Shown: one piece after another, positions 15,936 through 37,888 of the stretch
How positions within the stretch are numbered: the first letter of the stretch is position 1
How the letters are laid out: each line of letters begins with the position of its first letter
DNA from: a virus
Direction: 5' to 3' (one strand)
IMG/VR virus record: IMGVR_UViG_3300019768_000001
Span: 1 to 55,279 of that record
DNA length: 55,279 nt
Made by a program: the position numbers and the translations under genes
The notes under the pieces: model-generated
What the model saw: the letters and a program-made list of their open reading frames with translations, nothing else
What the model was told of the DNA's origin: nothing
Databases searched by the model: none

Positions 15936-17330
15936 TTACAATAACGGAGATTGTTCGCCAATCTCAGAATCTATAATCTCATCCGTTCGCTCTGGATCGA
16001 CCAGACCAGATCTGCGACCGTAATTCCTGACATCTTGAATAGCCCACGCACCACGATCTGAGCCTTGGAACATGGCCATCAACACCTGAGGGTCTGCGTC
16101 TTCAGGGTAGAAGTTATCGGATAGCTTGAACTTAACCTCGTCAGGATTCGCTCCCATGAACAAGGCCGCATCTCTCAGCCGATTCTCGAAAGCCTGTGAC
16201 ACGTTAGCGGTGATAGTAGTCAGGATAGAAGTTTCAGCGCTAGCTCTTATCTTTGCGGCCTCAGCAGTTTCAACACCTGATCTAGGCTGGATGATTTGAG
16301 CGCCAAGCATAACCATCTGTTCTTCTTTTCGAACCATAGCCTCGTTTGCTGCGCTGTTTGACTCAGCCTGTACCAGCTTCATATCACCTTTTTGTGTAAC
16401 AACAGCTCTACTACTACCAAGCTGTATCCCGTTTGGGTTTAGATCGTTAAAGTCTCTTGCACTGGTATCACCTGAATTAACATGTAGTGTTGGCTGCCCA
16501 GTAATATAAACCCCTTCCTCGTAATCTGCGCTATTACGGTAATGGGCAACATTAAGAGCTGCAATATCAGAAATTGGCGGTTGATCGGGATAAGGATTAT
16601 TGTCTACGGCACCAATAATATCAGCCGGTATTTTTTCGGCCATTGATCCGTCCGAGTACTTAATATCAAATACAAGGCCTGCAGAATCCTCTTTGTAATG
16701 CTGGACAGTAACACCAGAGTCAGTCACGCGATAAACAAGGTTTTTCGTTACTTCCTCAGATCCAAAGCCATCACTACCGCGATCAAGTACAATCTCTTTC
16801 AGGTTCAGCATCTGCAATGCATTACCGTTGTCGTCCCAGTTAATTGCGTTTTCAGCAAAGTAACTAACAATTTTGGCCTGTACTTGAGCGGATGATTTTT
16901 TTGACGGGACAGTATCAGGTGACAGCTCCTCGATTTCCTGCTCACCACCAACTGACGTGACAACGATATATCGCCCCTTGGCTTGAGCCTGCCTTACAGC
17001 ATCATAGGCCATTGATATAAGCGTTAGACCGTTACCGTCTGCGTTATCGCGCATATACTCAAGCTGAGCGGGAAGCTCTATAATCGGGTCTTCTCGGAAA
17101 ACTAGCCCGGTAAGACCCGAAACGGTTCTACCGGTAAAGTTGGTATAAACAGCACGATTCTTATAGGACTGGTATCTTTTAGATGCTTCATTATTAACAT
17201 CTGGATCTGGAATAGGGAGATAAGCAGGGCCGCGCTTCTTTACCTTGCGCTCACCGTCAATGGCATCTTGATTTCTCAGCCATTCGGTTTTGAACTCATC
17301 ATAAAGCGGGTGGGTTTCTGAAACAGGCAT
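15936..17330 (-). CDS. Portal protein (DUF4055 type)
   Basis: 464 residues from ATG 17330; a TTG at 17345 is the alternative start. The N-terminal part with YNGKRVKKRGPAYLP-like sequence (ERKVKKRGPAYLPIPDPDVN) and YKNRAVYTNFTGRTVSGLTG matches the DUF4055 portal family. The dodecameric ring it forms is the DNA gate at the head vertex. C-terminal features include a Gln/Ala helix region and DNFYPEDADPQVLMAMFQGS. It is separated from the terminase by the Mu-F-like gene and small genes, an unusual order. Its promoter is at 17360-17368. Confidence 0.88.
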   Translation of the reverse strand: MPVSETHPLYDEFKTEWLRNQDAIDGERKVKKRGPAYLPIPDPDVNNEASKRYQSYKNRAVYTNFTGRTVSGLTGLVFREDPIIELPAQLEYMRDNADGNGLTLISMAYDAVRQAQAKGRYIVVTSVGGEQEIEELSPDTVPSKKSSAQVQAKIVSYFAENAINWDDNGNALQMLNLKEIVLDRGSDGFGSEEVTKNLVYRVTDSGVTVQHYKEDSAGLVFDIKYSDGSMAEKIPADIIGAVDNNPYPDQPPISDIAALNVAHYRNSADYEEGVYITGQPTLHVNSGDTSARDFNDLNPNGIQLGSSRAVVTQKGDMKLVQAESNSAANEAMVRKEEQMVMLGAQIIQPRSGVETAEAAKIRASAETSILTTITANVSQAFENRLRDAALFMGANPDEVKFKLSDNFYPEDADPQVLMAMFQGSDRGAWAIQDVRNYGRRSGLVDPERTDEIIDSEIGEQSPLL

Positions 17331-27507: not shown

Positions 27508-28974
27508 TTATAGGACGGCAACTTTTCCAAGTAATTTTCCAGCCAGAATGTCAGCATCAAAGAACTCATCGCCCTCCATAGCTTCGCTGATTAACTTCGA
27601 TAGCTCACTAGACTTTGCGGCATTAAAAAGAACGTCTTCAGCAATAGCATCAACGTGAACTTGCTCAATATCAAAGCCAGCAGGATAAAGGCAGCCAGTA
27701 AAACCCTTTTTATCACGACTGTAAATCAAGCATCCAAGGCCTTCTAGATCATTCCTAAAAGTAACTACATTATCTCCCCCGCCTTTTGATACGCCCAAAA
27801 CAGTTACAACCTTGCCATTGAAGCTGTTAAACCGACTGTAATCTTCATGATATAAAACCACTAATTCAGCGCCAACAGGTGGCATATCACCGTTACGGAA
27901 CCAGTCAGATTCTACGACCTCCACATTAATCGTATTCTGATCAATACTCAGATCACCGATAGAGCCTTCAGCAACAACAGTAAGCCCCGCTATATCCGCC
28001 TCTGCCTGCTTTACACCATCATCAACCCACTCACCGGCATCTAATATGCTAGCTAGCTTTTCGGCTTGAGCGGCGCGAGTATTTTCTCTAGCATCAGCAG
28101 CATAAGCAGCAGCAGCAGCAGCATCAGCAGCAGCATAAGCAGCAGCAGCATAAGCAGCAGCAGCAGATCTTGCCTTAATTAACTCGTCTCTTGTCGCTTT
28201 ACCGTCAATATAATCAATCGTGACTTTCAAGCATTCTGAAACACGATCATCGTTAGACAGATGAGCCACTTGACACGCACACCACCACGCAAAACGCTTC
28301 CAGATATCGGAATACTCAGGCAGCGCACGAAACGTATAAATACAGCCTTTAACTCCAGGTTCAGATTTTATGATATCCGACATATTAAACTGATCATCGT
28401 CAGCTGTTGATTTTCCGCAGTATGCCAGCATGTTTTTCAGTAACTGCTTATTTCCGGTTTCTTTGATCTGATTTAGCGTAATTTTAATGGGCTTCATTTT
28501 ATCAATGCTCTCACCGCTGTCCGTATCGCCAAAGTTTTCCTCATAAGCTTCTTTCATAGACTGCCCCGGCTTGATTGGCGCTTTCTTCTCACCACCAAAA
28601 GCAATACGTTCGCGCTCCAAGGCTTCTTCTCTAGACATGATAATGCAAAACCCATCCATTTTTTCACCTTGACCGTAAAATACGTTCTCTTGCCTATATG
28701 CATCATAAGAAAGCCACTCGCCATTAGCCGTGTATCTAATCTCATGGGTATTATTATTCCAACTCTCAACCTTCGGCCTTCCGGTCATCTGCATCAGGCA
28801 TCTCTCGAACTCTGGTCGCTGACAAATAAACTGGCAATTGCCAGATATAACGCCCTCCATATTATGCCATGTGACCTCTTTTCCCATGTAAAGAGCGGCG
28901 TAATTAGACTCTTTATGCCATTTACCACAAGAAATACGCACAATCTGCTTTAACTCTTCGCTGAACCGTTCCAT
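27508..28974 (-). CDS. Large early-region protein with Ala/Tyr repeat
   Basis: 488 residues from ATG 28974 (GGGGTGATGGC upstream). The N-terminal part contains SEELKQIVRISCGKWHKESN and a later CQRPEFER segment. Residues about 270-300 are an Ala-rich repeat (SAAAAYAAAAYAAADAAAAA) encoded by GCT/GCA-type trinucleotide repeats (28098-28166), the signature of a repeat block seen in several phage early proteins. The C-terminal third looks like a small beta domain (VEVVESDWFRNGDMPPVGAE). Function unknown. Confidence 0.66.
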   Translation of the reverse strand: MERFSEELKQIVRISCGKWHKESNYAALYMGKEVTWHNMEGVISGNCQFICQRPEFERCLMQMTGRPKVESWNNNTHEIRYTANGEWLSYDAYRQENVFYGQGEKMDGFCIIMSREEALERERIAFGGEKKAPIKPGQSMKEAYEENFGDTDSGESIDKMKPIKITLNQIKETGNKQLLKNMLAYCGKSTADDDQFNMSDIIKSEPGVKGCIYTFRALPEYSDIWKRFAWWCACQVAHLSNDDRVSECLKVTIDYIDGKATRDELIKARSAAAAYAAAAYAAADAAAAAAYAADARENTRAAQAEKLASILDAGEWVDDGVKQAEADIAGLTVVAEGSIGDLSIDQNTINVEVVESDWFRNGDMPPVGAELVVLYHEDYSRFNSFNGKVVTVLGVSKGGGDNVVTFRNDLEGLGCLIYSRDKKGFTGCLYPAGFDIEQVHVDAIAEDVLFNAAKSSELSKLISEAMEGDEFFDADILAGKLLGKVAVL

Positions 28975-30679: not shown

Positions 30680-30844
30680 TTAGACGTTAGTCTTTTTATC
30701 TCGCTTAAACTCAGTACACCGGACGATATTTGTACCGTCCTTCTCTCGACTGATCATCGGCATTTCATCAAACTTTAAACCGCTACAGTCTTTGTGCTTA
30801 TTGACGCATACGGCGCACATGCCGCCCTTGGGTTGGTGGCTCAC
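30680..30844 (-). CDS. Small zinc-binding-type protein, 54 residues
   Basis: GTG 30844 overlaps the upstream stop (GTGA). MSHQPKGGMCAVCVNKHKDC has a CAVC pair followed by further Cys, a likely zinc site. The gene ends AAC GTC TAA TACC, a string that recurs after several other genes. Confidence 0.62.
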   Translation of the reverse strand: MSHQPKGGMCAVCVNKHKDCSGLKFDEMPMISREKDGTNIVRCTEFKRDKKTNV

Positions 30845-31563
30845 TTGTCGCCCTCCAGATAATAACTTTCGTGCTTAGACCATTGCTCAGACACCCATGT
30901 AACACCTTTAGGTGTGAACTTGGCTTGCTTGTATGCGTGGCCGGTATCACCTGCATCAGTGACACCTGTTTTTACTTCAAATCGACCTGCATCAATATGG
31001 TTTTGATATGGCACCCAGTCACCGGCCAGCTTATACATGATTTTCTGATCGGTTAGGAATCGACGGAATACAGGCTCTTTTACAAATAGCAGCTTACAGA
31101 CTTCACGAAACCCCATTAGGCCAGTGGCTTCGACATACTTTTCTTTGAACTCGATAGCCGGTTTAGCCTCTTCCAGTTTTTCAAGGGCGATCTGTTTTTG
31201 CTCAGCTTCATCAGCCCAAGCACGGGCAGCAGCAACAGGGTCTGAGAAGTCTGGTAAAGTAGGTTTATCATTATTCTGAAGGCTAGACACCCACTCACGA
31301 ACGCGACGCCTTACGGTCTTGGATTCTCGCATACCAACCTGTAGAGCCTGATCTCTATCAATTAGCGCACATTTCGACTCTGTATTGTTCATATTTTGAA
31401 CAACGAAAGTTTCGTAGTGTTCACCTTCAAGCTCGTCCTCTACTTTTGCGATAAAATCCGCAGGTCTTACCGGTTTCTCGCTAGCCTCTTTTCGGAAAAC
31501 GTTTATCACGTTAAGTAAATCAACAGTACTAATTAAACCGTCACTTACAACTAAGTCATTCAT
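30841..31563 (-). CDS. Phage antirepressor-like protein (Rha/ANT type)
   Basis: 240 residues. The N-terminal part (DLLNVINVFRKEASEKPVRP, VGMRESKTVRRRVREW) is a Rha-like DNA- or partner-binding region. The C-terminal part (EATGLMGFREVCKLLFVKEP, FLTDQKIMYKLAGDWVPYQN) is the KilAC/ANT domain of phage antirepressors. A paralogue lies on the other strand at 34126-34815. Likely inactivates a repressor; the target is not visible here. It is preceded by a long leader with a terminator-like hairpin. Confidence 0.85.
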   Translation of the reverse strand: MNDLVVSDGLISTVDLLNVINVFRKEASEKPVRPADFIAKVEDELEGEHYETFVVQNMNNTESKCALIDRDQALQVGMRESKTVRRRVREWVSSLQNNDKPTLPDFSDPVAAARAWADEAEQKQIALEKLEEAKPAIEFKEKYVEATGLMGFREVCKLLFVKEPVFRRFLTDQKIMYKLAGDWVPYQNHIDAGRFEVKTGVTDAGDTGHAYKQAKFTPKGVTWVSEQWSKHESYYLEGDK

Positions 31564-31576
31564 AATAAAATTCCAT

Positions 31577-31707
31577 AAAAAAAGTCAGAGCAATCTCCCG
31601 GGTCGAAGAGGGTATACAGGAACCCACCGGAAAAATACTCTGACTATTTGTACCTGTATTTCAAATCACCACAGGCTTCGACACCATTTTGCGATAACTC
31701 GAATTGA
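31577..31707 (-). ncRNA. Attenuator-like 5' leader of the antirepressor gene
   Basis: Minus strand: promoter TGGTATAAT at 31722-31714, then about 130 nt of leader. GTCAGAG (31644-31638) pairs with CTCTGAC (31590-31584), which is followed by seven T (31583-31577), 14 bases before ATG 31563. GGGT and ACCC can form an inner hairpin. An earlier CCTGT...ACAGG pairing could compete. Confidence 0.6.
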
Positions 31708-31713
31708 ACTTAA

Positions 31714-31733
31714 ATTATACCATCGTCTTAACC
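31714..31733 (-). promoter_or_regulatory. Promoter with GGTTAAGAC element
   Basis: Minus strand: GTTAAGAC, five bases, TATAAT (31719-31714), with TGG directly before. Drives the antirepressor leader. Confidence 0.62.
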
Positions 31734-31739
31734 GGCTAA

Positions 31740-31916
31740 CTATTCGACTTTATCGACAGGTTTACCGGGGTTTCTTTCGATTTTAGCACAGTGAAAGGTA
31801 TTCTTGCCGACGTAGAACCGGCCAAGCCTAATACATTCGTTAGCTATTGTGTTGTGCGCGATCACATACCCGATTACAGTACCGACAAATACCCACCAAA
31901 ACGCTTCATACCCCAT
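31740..31916 (-). CDS. Small membrane protein, 58 residues
   Basis: ATG 31916 with AGGTGGTTAT upstream. MGYEAFWWVFVGTVIGYVIA is an N-terminal membrane helix, then a basic soluble part with two Cys. A pattern I associate with short phage membrane proteins of unknown role. Confidence 0.62.
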   Translation of the reverse strand: MGYEAFWWVFVGTVIGYVIAHNTIANECIRLGRFYVGKNTFHCAKIERNPGKPVDKVE

Positions 31917-33315: not shown

Positions 33316-33378
33316 TTCAGACCACCTTTATTTTCTTGTTTATATATATCCAGAGTAGGTTTCTAGGTTTAGATAGGC

Positions 33379-33427
33379 ATAACAACTCTAAGGAAACCAA
33401 TATTAATCAGTTAACCTTAGCTGTTAT
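33379..33427. repeat. attC-like palindromic element, candidate
   Basis: ATAACA (33379-33384) and TGTTAT (33422-33427) at the ends, CTAAGG/CCTTAG inner stem with unpaired bases on one side. Similar frame to the elements at 17779, 35881 and 48631, but no small gene ends at it. Confidence 0.4.
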
Positions 33428-33439
33428 ACCTGATATATC

Positions 33440-33718
33440 CGTCGTAGTGTGTCTTAGGATATCAAGGCAGTCTATTCGATCATGGTCTAATAAACTTAGG
33501 TCAGTATGGTCAATGAACCACCAGAGTCATGCGCTAGACCTACACCTGTTAAGGCAACTCTTAGGCGCTCCCGCTTGCTCTCTGTGCCATGTAGCGGGAT
33601 TGTCACCAGTACGCACCGGTTTTAACCGACATACTGGTCTAGCTGATTACGTGGGATTGCTCGGAGTAATCCCTTTAACCGTTTCTGGCTTCGGGACGTG
33701 GGGCGGGATTTCAGGCAT
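33440..33718. other. Gene-free stretch with several strong hairpins
   Basis: At least three hairpins: CCCGCT/AGCGGG (33570-33598), CCAGTA/TACTGG enclosing an ACCGGTT/AACCG stem (33606-33637), and GGGATT/AATCCC (33652-33672). No convincing gene on either strand. Likely structured RNA or DNA; orientation unclear. Confidence 0.5.
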
Positions 33719-33822
33719 AAAAAAAGGTCTTTTAGGTGTGCCCCTGTGAGAGGAAGCGGAATTAACCGCAAAGACACACTTAAAAAACCTTTCTCGCTAT
33801 CTGGCTCTCACCCCAATCAGCA
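33719..33822 (-). ncRNA. Candidate small RNA ending in an 18-bp terminator hairpin
   Basis: Promoter TATAAT at 33834-33829 on the minus strand. The RNA would run about 100 nt to a hairpin whose arms (33773-33790 and 33725-33742) pair over 18 bp using several G-U pairs, followed by seven T (33725-33719). GTGAGAG and CTCTCAC (33805-33811 / 33746-33752) can pair as an alternative. The only following ORF is 23 codons with no ribosome site, so it is more likely an RNA than a leader. Confidence 0.55.
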
Positions 33823-33982
33823 CTAACAATTATACTTTATGGTTAGATTTAATCAACAAATCTTTGAAGCACACCCTGCGGGGTTAATTGCCACCGGCGG
33901 TGCTTGGCCCCGATAGCAAAAACAGGATGCGCCCCAAAGCCCCTAAGAATCTTCATTATGAACCGCAATAGTTACTTTGCAA

Positions 33983-33999
33983 TTAGCCTTTGGTATAAT
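33983..33999 (+). promoter_or_regulatory. Promoter with TTAGCC element
   Basis: TTAGCC (33983-33988), five bases, TATAAT (33994-33999) preceded by TGG. Same geometry as the minus-strand promoters at 31714 and 21021. Confidence 0.62.
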
Positions 34000-34005
34000 T
34001 GATAA

Positions 34006-34114
34006 ATCGGCTTCGCACCCGTATATTTCAACAGTTAAAAATAGGAATTGCATTCTAGCTTTGGGCTACTGTTGGCCGTGCGAACAAAGCTTTGATTGCA
34101 ATTCCTTTTTTTTT
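34006..34114 (+). ncRNA. Attenuator-like 5' leader of the second antirepressor gene
   Basis: Begins near the expected start site after TATAAT. AGGAATTGCA (34043-34052) pairs perfectly with TGCAATTCCT (34097-34106), with AGCTTTG/CAAAGCT nested inside, followed by nine T (34106-34114) and then the ribosome site GGAG (34115-34118) of ATG 34126. Confidence 0.65.
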
Positions 34115-34125
34115 GGAGTTTTTCC

Positions 34126-34815
34126 ATGAACGATTTAGTTTTACCCGCCAATACACAGACAATGACCAGCCTAGAGCTGCGCGATATTATCAATAGCTCT
34201 CGCCAGAGCAGCAATGAACCCAAGGTTCGCAATGATCAGCTTATTGATAGAATTAAAGATGAGCTTGAAGGTGAATTAGGGGTATGCAAAAAAATTGCAC
34301 ACCCCCAAAGCGGCGTTGAAATGAAATACTACGACCTGACGATTGATCAATGCACCCTGGTTGGTATGCGTGAATCTAAGTCTGTCCGCCGTAACGTGCT
34401 GGCAAAGCTTAAAGAGCTGGAATCAGGCCAGAAAAAGATACCTCAGTCTTTCGCAGAGGCTCTACAACTTGCAGCAGACCAAGCCCTTCAGATTGAGCAG
34501 CAGGAGCAACAACTCGCCATTGCAGCCCCGAAGGTGGACTTTTACGATACTGTTACAGGGTCAGATGATACCGTTGACATGCTTGGAGCGGTGAAAGTGC
34601 TTAACCTTGGCTACGGACGCACTACCCTATTCAAAAAACTGCGCGAGAAAAAGGTTCTGCGTAAGAGCAATCAGCCGTACCAGCGGTATATTGATTCTGG
34701 ATATTTCCGAGTTGTCGAGTCAACTTGGACTGATGATAAAGGCGATTCTCACGTACACTTTAAAACAGTGGTATACCAGAAGGGCTTAGACTACATCAAA
34801 AAGATTCTGGCCTAG
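34126..34815 (+). CDS. Phage antirepressor-like protein (ANT domain), paralogue
   Basis: 229 residues from ATG 34126. The N-terminal region shares VGMRESKSVRR with the minus-strand paralogue at 30841. The C-terminal ANT domain contains MLGAVKVLNLGYGRTTLFKK and LRKSNQPYQRYIDSGYFRVV. It lies on the opposite strand about 2.6 kb away, with its own promoter and attenuator-like leader, and a terminator at 34828. Confidence 0.85.
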   Translation: MNDLVLPANTQTMTSLELRDIINSSRQSSNEPKVRNDQLIDRIKDELEGELGVCKKIAHPQSGVEMKYYDLTIDQCTLVGMRESKSVRRNVLAKLKELESGQKKIPQSFAEALQLAADQALQIEQQEQQLAIAAPKVDFYDTVTGSDDTVDMLGAVKVLNLGYGRTTLFKKLREKKVLRKSNQPYQRYIDSGYFRVVESTWTDDKGDSHVHFKTVVYQKGLDYIKKILA

Positions 34816-34827
34816 TAGAAACAAAGA

Positions 34828-34850
34828 AGCCCTACAAGTGAGGGCTTTTT
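34828..34850. terminator. Intrinsic terminator between convergent genes
   Basis: AGCCCT/AGGGCT stem with loop ACAAGTG and a T-run on the plus side; the minus side has an A/T-rich context as well. It ends the antirepressor gene on the plus strand and the minus-strand operon that stops at 34862. Confidence 0.8.
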
Positions 34851-34861
34851 ATACTTTATGG

Positions 34862-35104
34862 CTAGACTTTTTCAACAAGTTCGAATGTTTTTATTGTTTC
34901 TGCAATATGGAAGTGGCCATCATACTTGTAACCTGGCGTTTTATGGTCAGCCAAAACCTTATCAGGGAATCTACGCATAAACTCTTTCGTTGAATAATCA
35001 TGGCCTGACACCACTTCACCTGTAAGCCTTGTTTCTTCAGTGTACTTAACCTCAAACCCAAGCTTCTCACATAGCGCAATTAACAACTTCATTTCATCGC
35101 TCAC
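34862..35104 (-). CDS. Hypothetical protein, 80 residues
   Basis: GTG 35104 with AAGGGGTGTATT upstream. MSDEMKLLIALCEKLGFEVK and FMRRFPDKVLADHKTPGYKY; compact alpha/beta. Family not recognised. Confidence 0.6.
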   Translation of the reverse strand: MSDEMKLLIALCEKLGFEVKYTEETRLTGEVVSGHDYSTKEFMRRFPDKVLADHKTPGYKYDGHFHIAETIKTFELVEKV

Positions 35105-37622: not shown

Positions 37623-37736
37623 ACCGCGAAATAACGACACAACCAGGATGGCAATTGATCTTATATGCTAATTTTTCAGACGAGCATAATTAATGATTGA
37701 TCATTGCCGCCCTATAATGTTCGGGCTTTAAATGGG

Positions 37737-37809
37737 GCCACAAACGGGACTCGAACCTGCGACCTCTCGCTTAGGAGTCGAGCGTTCTATCCAACTGAAC
37801 TAATAGCGC
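37737..37809 (-). tRNA. Degenerate tRNA-Arg(CCT)-like sequence
   Basis: 73 nt with a D arm (GTTC/GAAC), anticodon loop CTCCTAA and T loop TTCGAGT, but the acceptor pairs in only about four of seven positions and the T stem has a mismatch. A decayed or unusual phage tRNA. Confidence 0.5.
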
Positions 37810-37815
37810 TTAAGA

Positions 37816-37888
37816 GCTGAAGGCCGGATTCGAACCGACGCAATACCAATGCGAACAAAGGCGGGTTTTCCAGTTTCCCCACTTCAGC
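37816..37888 (-). tRNA. tRNA-like sequence without an anticodon arm
   Basis: Acceptor GCTGAAG/CTTCAGC pairs perfectly (7 bp); D arm with CTGG; T arm GTCGG-TTCGAAT-CCGGC. Between them, CGCA-TTGGTAT-TGCG looks like a class-II variable arm, and a normal anticodon stem is missing. Could be a deletion derivative of a Leu/Ser tRNA or a tRNA mimic. Confidence 0.5.

Follow-up and report, generated by a model that had tools for sequence, protein, structure and literature searches.

We propose that the leader upstream of an antirepressor gene (ant1) in a phage DNA of 55,279 nucleotides (IMG/VR record IMGVR_UViG_3300019768_000001, hereafter the window) is an RNA-controlled premature-termination attenuator of ant, acting like the C4 and CI immunity RNAs; we give this reading a probability of about 0.6. 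A promoter-like element, predicted structures, the complementarity of two hairpin segments (a' and b') with two segments upstream in the same leader (a and b), its preservation and the recurrence of the arrangement before ant genes can all be read from the sequences compared here.

Architecture of the leader upstream of ant1

The leader, W1, is approximately 150 nt long and comprises two stable hairpins, the second of which has the form of a terminator and adjoins the SD and the ATG of ant1 at 31563 (Table 1). Folding gives an MFE of -48.3 kcal/mol, whereas shuffles average -31.0 (z = -4.39), and none of 200 shuffles was as stable. Hairpin B is made of an outer stem, an inner stem (GGGU/ACCC), an apical loop formed by b' and an 8-nt bulge on the 3' side containing a'; both pairings with the upstream segments are perfect (a/a' 7/7, b/b' 7/7). 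A weak SD (GGA) sits between the U tract and the start codon. The leader from TATAAT to ATG described in an earlier note on this DNA is thus present, TATAAT lying within an extended -10 element, as are the arms of its terminal hairpin (GTCAGAG, 31644-31638; CTCTGAC, 31590-31584). The run of seven T that the note placed directly before the gene also exists, although it ends 13 nt before the ATG. A simple terminator scan missed this terminator because the loop limit of the scan was 8 nt.

Table 1. Positions of the leaders, antirepressor genes and related features
Feature	Positions	Strand	Basis or remark
W1 extended -10 promoter element TGGTATAAT	31722-31714	minus	contains TATAAT, 31719-31714
W1 5' hairpin A, segment a in its loop	31703-31660	minus	fold, z = -3.49
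W1 segment a, GUCGAAG	31682-31676	minus	complement of a'; sequence matching
W1 segment b, AUACAGG	31659-31653	minus	complement of b'; sequence matching
W1 terminator-type hairpin B	31644-31584	minus	z = -5.97 alone
W1 b', CCUGUAU, apical loop of hairpin B	31620-31614	minus	
W1 a', CUUCGAC, 3' bulge of hairpin B	31608-31602	minus	
W1 U7 tract after hairpin B	31583-31577	minus	sequence
ant1, 240-aa ANT/KilAC antirepressor	30841-31563	minus	PF03374, 5e-24; phrog_63 anti-repressor Ant, 1.7e-47
W2 extended -10 TGGTATAAT	33991-33999	plus	same 9-mer as W1
W2 segment a, UUCGCAC	34012-34018	plus	complement of a' GUGCGAA
W2 segment b, CAACAGU	34029-34035	plus	complement of b' ACUGUUG
W2 terminator-type hairpin, including U9 (34106-34114)	34043-34114	plus	b' 34068-34074; a' 34078-34084
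ant2, 229-aa ANT/KilAC antirepressor	34126-34815	plus	PF03374, 6.5e-24; phrog_63, 1.7e-51
Terminator-like hairpin after ant2	34824-34850	plus	terminator scan
Terminator leaders before a 60-aa non-ANT ORF, loops GUACUAG/CUAGUAC	L322:4837-4969; L329:4438-4571		two viral contigs

No Rfam family was found for W1 over 31450-31850, either at gathering or at E<=10 (no riboswitch, C4 or isrK); the matches besides were tRNA-like ones elsewhere and chance miRNA and fstAT matches. Two tandem tRNA-like matches of the window (37736-37809 and 37815-37888, minus strand; 38.0 and 35.7 bits), both rejected by ARAGORN with default settings, are likely degenerate phage tRNAs. Direct DNA homologues of the W1 leader were absent among phages.

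The part of W1 bearing segment a (31669-31702) resembles positions 31121-31154 inside ant1 (71% over 34 nt, both with GUCGAAGCC), a likeness that may be due to chance or may mark an internal second target.

A second copy upstream of ant2

The same layout is found upstream of both ant genes of the window phage. In W2 (leader z = -4.91; hairpin alone z = -6.09), the U9 tract is followed by GGAG and then by the ATG of ant2 at 34126, and in neither W1 nor W2 does a small ORF separate leader and ant. The W1 leader contains one short ATG frame, without evident SD, and the W2 leader has no ATG, so that ribosome-mediated attenuation of the trp type is unlikely. The third TGGTATAAT of the window (20724-20716) lacks a hairpin and U tract. 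Pairing between the W1 and W2 leaders was not in excess, local loop matches reaching 4 nt at most, and for this reason no cross-control between them is proposed.

The ant2 module (33830-34878), which is oriented opposite to the genes around it and carries a terminator of its own, lies between imperfect direct repeats of 30 nt; it resembles a moron that has been inserted. Upstream of W2, about 670 nt of the plus strand (33316-33990) are without evident genes, and Oceanospirillum phage GJ44 has a similar non-coding stretch in the same place. On the minus strand, a small ORF (32360-32161, MKLPQVSKEDLEPDMMYIWKMPDG) runs into an in-frame TAG, beyond which the frame is open for some 40 more codons, as would a broken gene, a read-through case or a sequence error.

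Related leaders in other phages

GJ44 carries a third copy before its ant gene, with the same extended -10 TGGTATAAT and the loop pairs UUCAGACC/GGUCUGAA (a/a') and CACAAGU/ACUUGUG (b/b'). The promoter, U tract, SD and start of the W2 and GJ44 leaders are homologous; when one leader is read against the other, four or more loop pairs differ at both partners and no pair is lost. A conserved-sequence pattern of the W2/GJ44 leader gave no match in viral contigs.

One could regard these hairpins as ordinary terminators that insulate ant from an upstream operon, the promoter-like sequence being fortuitous and the loops idle. Hairpin B followed by U7 is a good terminator, and the minus-strand ORFs upstream of W1 end at 31740, so that read-through would meet it. 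The second copy, however, precedes ant2 with no evident coding transcript upstream on that strand, the extended -10 is identical in W1, W2 and GJ44, and diverged leaders have retained the a/a' and b/b' complementarity. A terminator between a promoter and its own gene would moreover be odd unless regulated, and we consider plain insulation improbable.

Approximately 290 ANT loci, drawn from viral contigs, phages and genomes, were examined for a hairpin and U tract ahead of the start codon. Most had none; an extended hairpin of the kind seen in W1 was present in W1, W2, GJ44, L126/L127, L099, L183 and L199. As most ANT genes follow cII-like or other ORFs and have no such leader, it is not a general attribute of ANT; a search for ANT genes across 274 genomes belonging to a single class had a low yield. 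Related leaders precede antirepressor operons in other phages and MAGs. A promoter-terminator-SD pattern search in viral contigs led to the L322 and L329 leaders (Table 1), and a scan of all terminators to that of L047.

The leaders fall into two types. Type II leaders carry both a' and b' (W1, W2, GJ44 and L183; L199 has the same hairpin, with the upstream part cut off). In type I leaders (L126, L099, L322, L047 and L338), two hairpins have fully complementary loops of 6-7 nt. L338 (Aeromonas phage 4_4512), one of ten phages fetched after the rule of complementary loops had been set, obeys it (GUAGAG/CUCUAC); compared with its homologue L047 (GUGCAAG/CUUGCAC), the loops differ and the U tract, SD and ATG are identical. 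In both, the leader is followed by a small ORF and then by ant, a layout that is also that of c4-icd-ant and isrK-orf45-anrP.

L042/L048 and L004/L005, which had first looked like terminators or leaders, fit C4-type folds better and were set aside. In L315 (2810-2942), a promoter, leader, hairpin, U7, GGAG and ATG precede an ORF of homing-nuclease type, GIY-YIG-like, possibly as another attenuator leader. In Dysgonomonas (L153:1757-1841), 9 nt of the 13-nt loop of a terminator located about 130 nt before an ANT gene are complementary to an upstream segment, a possible Bacteroidota case of a leader with complementary loops.

Conservation of loop complementarity

The idea of complementarity was drawn from W1, and W2 and GJ44 had been chosen earlier on the presence of a hairpin before the ant start alone. 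In all three, a and b lie in this order upstream of the hairpin carrying b' and a'. Against shuffled upstream sequence, the joint complementarity of a and b had a p value of 2.5e-4 in W1, which bears out the competing fold suspected in the earlier note, and of <2.5e-4 in W2, 2.5e-4 in GJ44 and 1e-3 in L183. For L199, whose sequence is truncated upstream, the comparison covered b alone (p = 0.009); in L126 and L099, a/a' pairing is weak or missing.

Loop sequences differ in every leader and complementarity is retained. In a 10 x 10 matrix of leaders, some of which (L047) came from scans favouring complementarity, every loop fits its own leader best; own b-b' matching over the ten leaders exceeded all 200,000 permutations, and own a-a' matching was the best of 120. 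In a control over 591 distinct terminators, loop-complementary ones were enriched directly before genes, with 8/44 there versus 12/256 (Fisher p = 0.004); one of these eight, on the plus strand of the window at 16896, is probably due to chance.

These data bear on the alternative that the earlier note had put forward, an attenuator or a ligand-sensing leader. The anatomy supports the attenuator type well: a terminator stands immediately ahead of the SD, a competing pairing is conserved, and the arrangement recurs both in a paralogue and in other phages. A ligand- or protein-sensing, riboswitch-like leader would likewise be a structured 5' region with alternative folds and a terminator, but no primary-sequence core is conserved, the loops vary freely from leader to leader and Rfam gave no riboswitch match. 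The conserved feature is the complementarity of the loops and not their sequence, the reverse of what a conserved aptamer would show; ligand sensing is thus not supported, and we regard a ligand- or protein-sensing leader as highly improbable.

Comparison with RNAs controlling antirepressors

Several known RNAs were compared with the leaders. C4 RNAs with a1b1 (RF01695, RF03163; phages P1, P7 and N15) share with the leaders a position ahead of the antirepressor on one transcript; a1 and b1 come first and in the same order as a and b, the hairpin RNA that follows holds b' in an inner loop and a' in 8 single-stranded nt on its 3' side, and the loop sequences vary and set specificity (PMC5320573). 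Changes of a few nucleotides in a'/b' determine C4 heteroimmunity (PMC5320573). As controls, P7 and N15 match C4 in Rfam, and N15 matches isrK. In N15 (L330), Rfam places isrK and C4 in tandem at 28301-28489 (minus strand), upstream of gp32-gp30, gp30 presumably being the antirepressor of the operon so preceded. The C4 fold of N15 has the outer stem, b' loop and 8-nt a' of hairpin B plus one more hairpin, and its a1 and b1 (UCUCAAC and ACAAGAAG) find their complements in C4 with the order unchanged.

The C4 covariance model (RF01695) matched W1 neither at gathering nor at E<=10, and W2 not at gathering. Of the three-stem fold of C4 (P1, P2, P3), the outer stem, the b' hairpin and the 8-nt a' bulge are present in the leaders and the second hairpin is absent; there is no UUCG hairpin between the outer stem and the b' hairpin. 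GGW at the hairpin base, the RNase P site of C4 (product of about 77 nt), is not consistent among W1, W2 and GJ44, GGA being found in W2 only. Unlike C4, the leaders end in their own intrinsic terminator adjoining the ant SD, and no a2 or b2 was found at the downstream RBS in the window or GJ44. Lacking model match, three-stem fold and a2b2 target, the leaders were not filed as C4. Translational control of the C4 type, in which the hairpin RNA would repress at the SD and the terminator would be secondary, has in its favour the order of a1 b1, hairpin with b' loop, single-stranded 8-nt a' and gene, as in N15 and P7; with neither a2/b2 at the SD of ant1 or ant2 nor a match to the C4 model, it appears very unlikely. 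By analogy, the leaders would rather behave as a reduced form of C4/CI into which a terminator has been built, which we think more likely than not.

The CI RNA of P4 pairs with complementary leader sequence and thereby causes premature termination before the lytic genes (PMC4825925). This system (CI/seqA-seqB-seqC) resembles the leaders in that a leader RNA pairs within the leader and controls termination before lytic genes, a likeness drawn from the published description. P4 has targets upstream and downstream and a processed CI RNA, whereas the leaders have a/b upstream only and their pairing loops lie inside the terminator hairpin. The sar RNA of P22 is a small RNA that controls antirepressor synthesis (PMC12197685); it pairs with ant mRNA to block translation, in contrast to the leaders, whose pairing segments lie in the leader itself.

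IsrK (Gifsy-1, RF01394; also in N15) shares with the leaders the order promoter, short RNA, Rho-independent terminator, (small ORF) and antirepressor, and partial read-through before anrP makes the mRNA (PMC4825925). The Rfam model of IsrK had no match in the leader. IsrK differs in that it frees translation of orf45, the small ORF being absent after W1 and W2 and present in L047 and L338. The leaders could thus be genes for a stand-alone small RNA, ending at the terminator, with loop pairing serving a compact tertiary fold or a dimer, trans targets on host or other phage RNAs, and ant expressed by incidental read-through; they do encode a compact structured RNA with its own promoter and terminator, and IsrK itself is trans-acting, with read-through into an antirepressor operon (PMC4825925). 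Against this, neither the window nor GJ44 has another target resembling a/b; b and b' change jointly, which a target elsewhere leaves unexplained; and the position before ant or an ant operon is steady. We consider such a gene unlikely.

Proposed mechanism

The attenuator that we favour has a terminator-type hairpin and U tract between promoter and gene, and a mutually exclusive upstream fold according to nested-fold energies (no pseudoknot model). In computed folding, before a' is made, the MFE structure is the a-a'/b-b' fold in W2 and GJ44 and b-b' in W1; once the RNA is complete, the terminator wins over the a/b fold by 10-16 kcal/mol in the three leaders.

Transcription would begin at the extended -10 promoter, and in the emerging RNA a and b would find their partners, first b' and later a', while the terminator still lacks its 3' arm, an antitermination-like intermediate. 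After synthesis of this arm, the far more stable hairpin B would form with its U tract, and most transcripts would stop just before the ant SD, releasing an RNA of about 130 nt with the b' loop and a' bulge exposed. The released RNA would most likely act in trans, with the same specificity, on a/b of a new leader RNA and favour termination; whatever occupies a/b or speeds the formation of hairpin B would raise termination. The outcome would be sequence-specific immunity against ant expression from an incoming or co-resident phage. By analogy with P4 CI RNA and the C4 RNA of P1, P7 and N15, this trans step is the most likely one. The order of folding was computed; termination in vivo, the identity of the repressing RNA and the direction of its trans effect are what we infer.

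The read-through state may be only transient, since in the full-length leader the a/b fold is far less stable than the terminator. Because a second a/b target was found neither near the ant starts nor elsewhere in the window or GJ44, the target of any action in trans would have to be the leader. Alternatively, pairing between the loops might do no more than stabilise the RNA once it is complete.

Significance

Antirepressors decide whether a prophage wakes, and phages guard such genes by RNA; C4, CI, IsrK and sar had seemed to be inventions unrelated to one another. The leaders described here combine the same loop logic (a1 b1 versus a' b') with an intrinsic terminator; one phage has two of them, which differ in address, and unrelated phages have them too. 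In the open-access literature searched, no description was found of a phage antirepressor preceded by a terminator whose loops are complementary to the leader that contains it, which is weak evidence of novelty. We tentatively raise the possibility of an undescribed class of self-addressed phage terminators, used ahead of antirepressors and certain other genes of phages. In such a leader, the loop of the terminator would be exactly complementary to an earlier loop of the same RNA, and the released leader would be a diffusible, sequence-specific signal that silences all copies sharing its loop 'address', whether for immunity or for sensing copy number.

That loop matching was kept despite changed letters suggests an RNA 'password' holding lysogeny-breaking genes off. 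If it acts as proposed, this would be an RNA immunity device both compact and orthogonal, whose specificity can be tested directly on homologous leaders that have their loops swapped.
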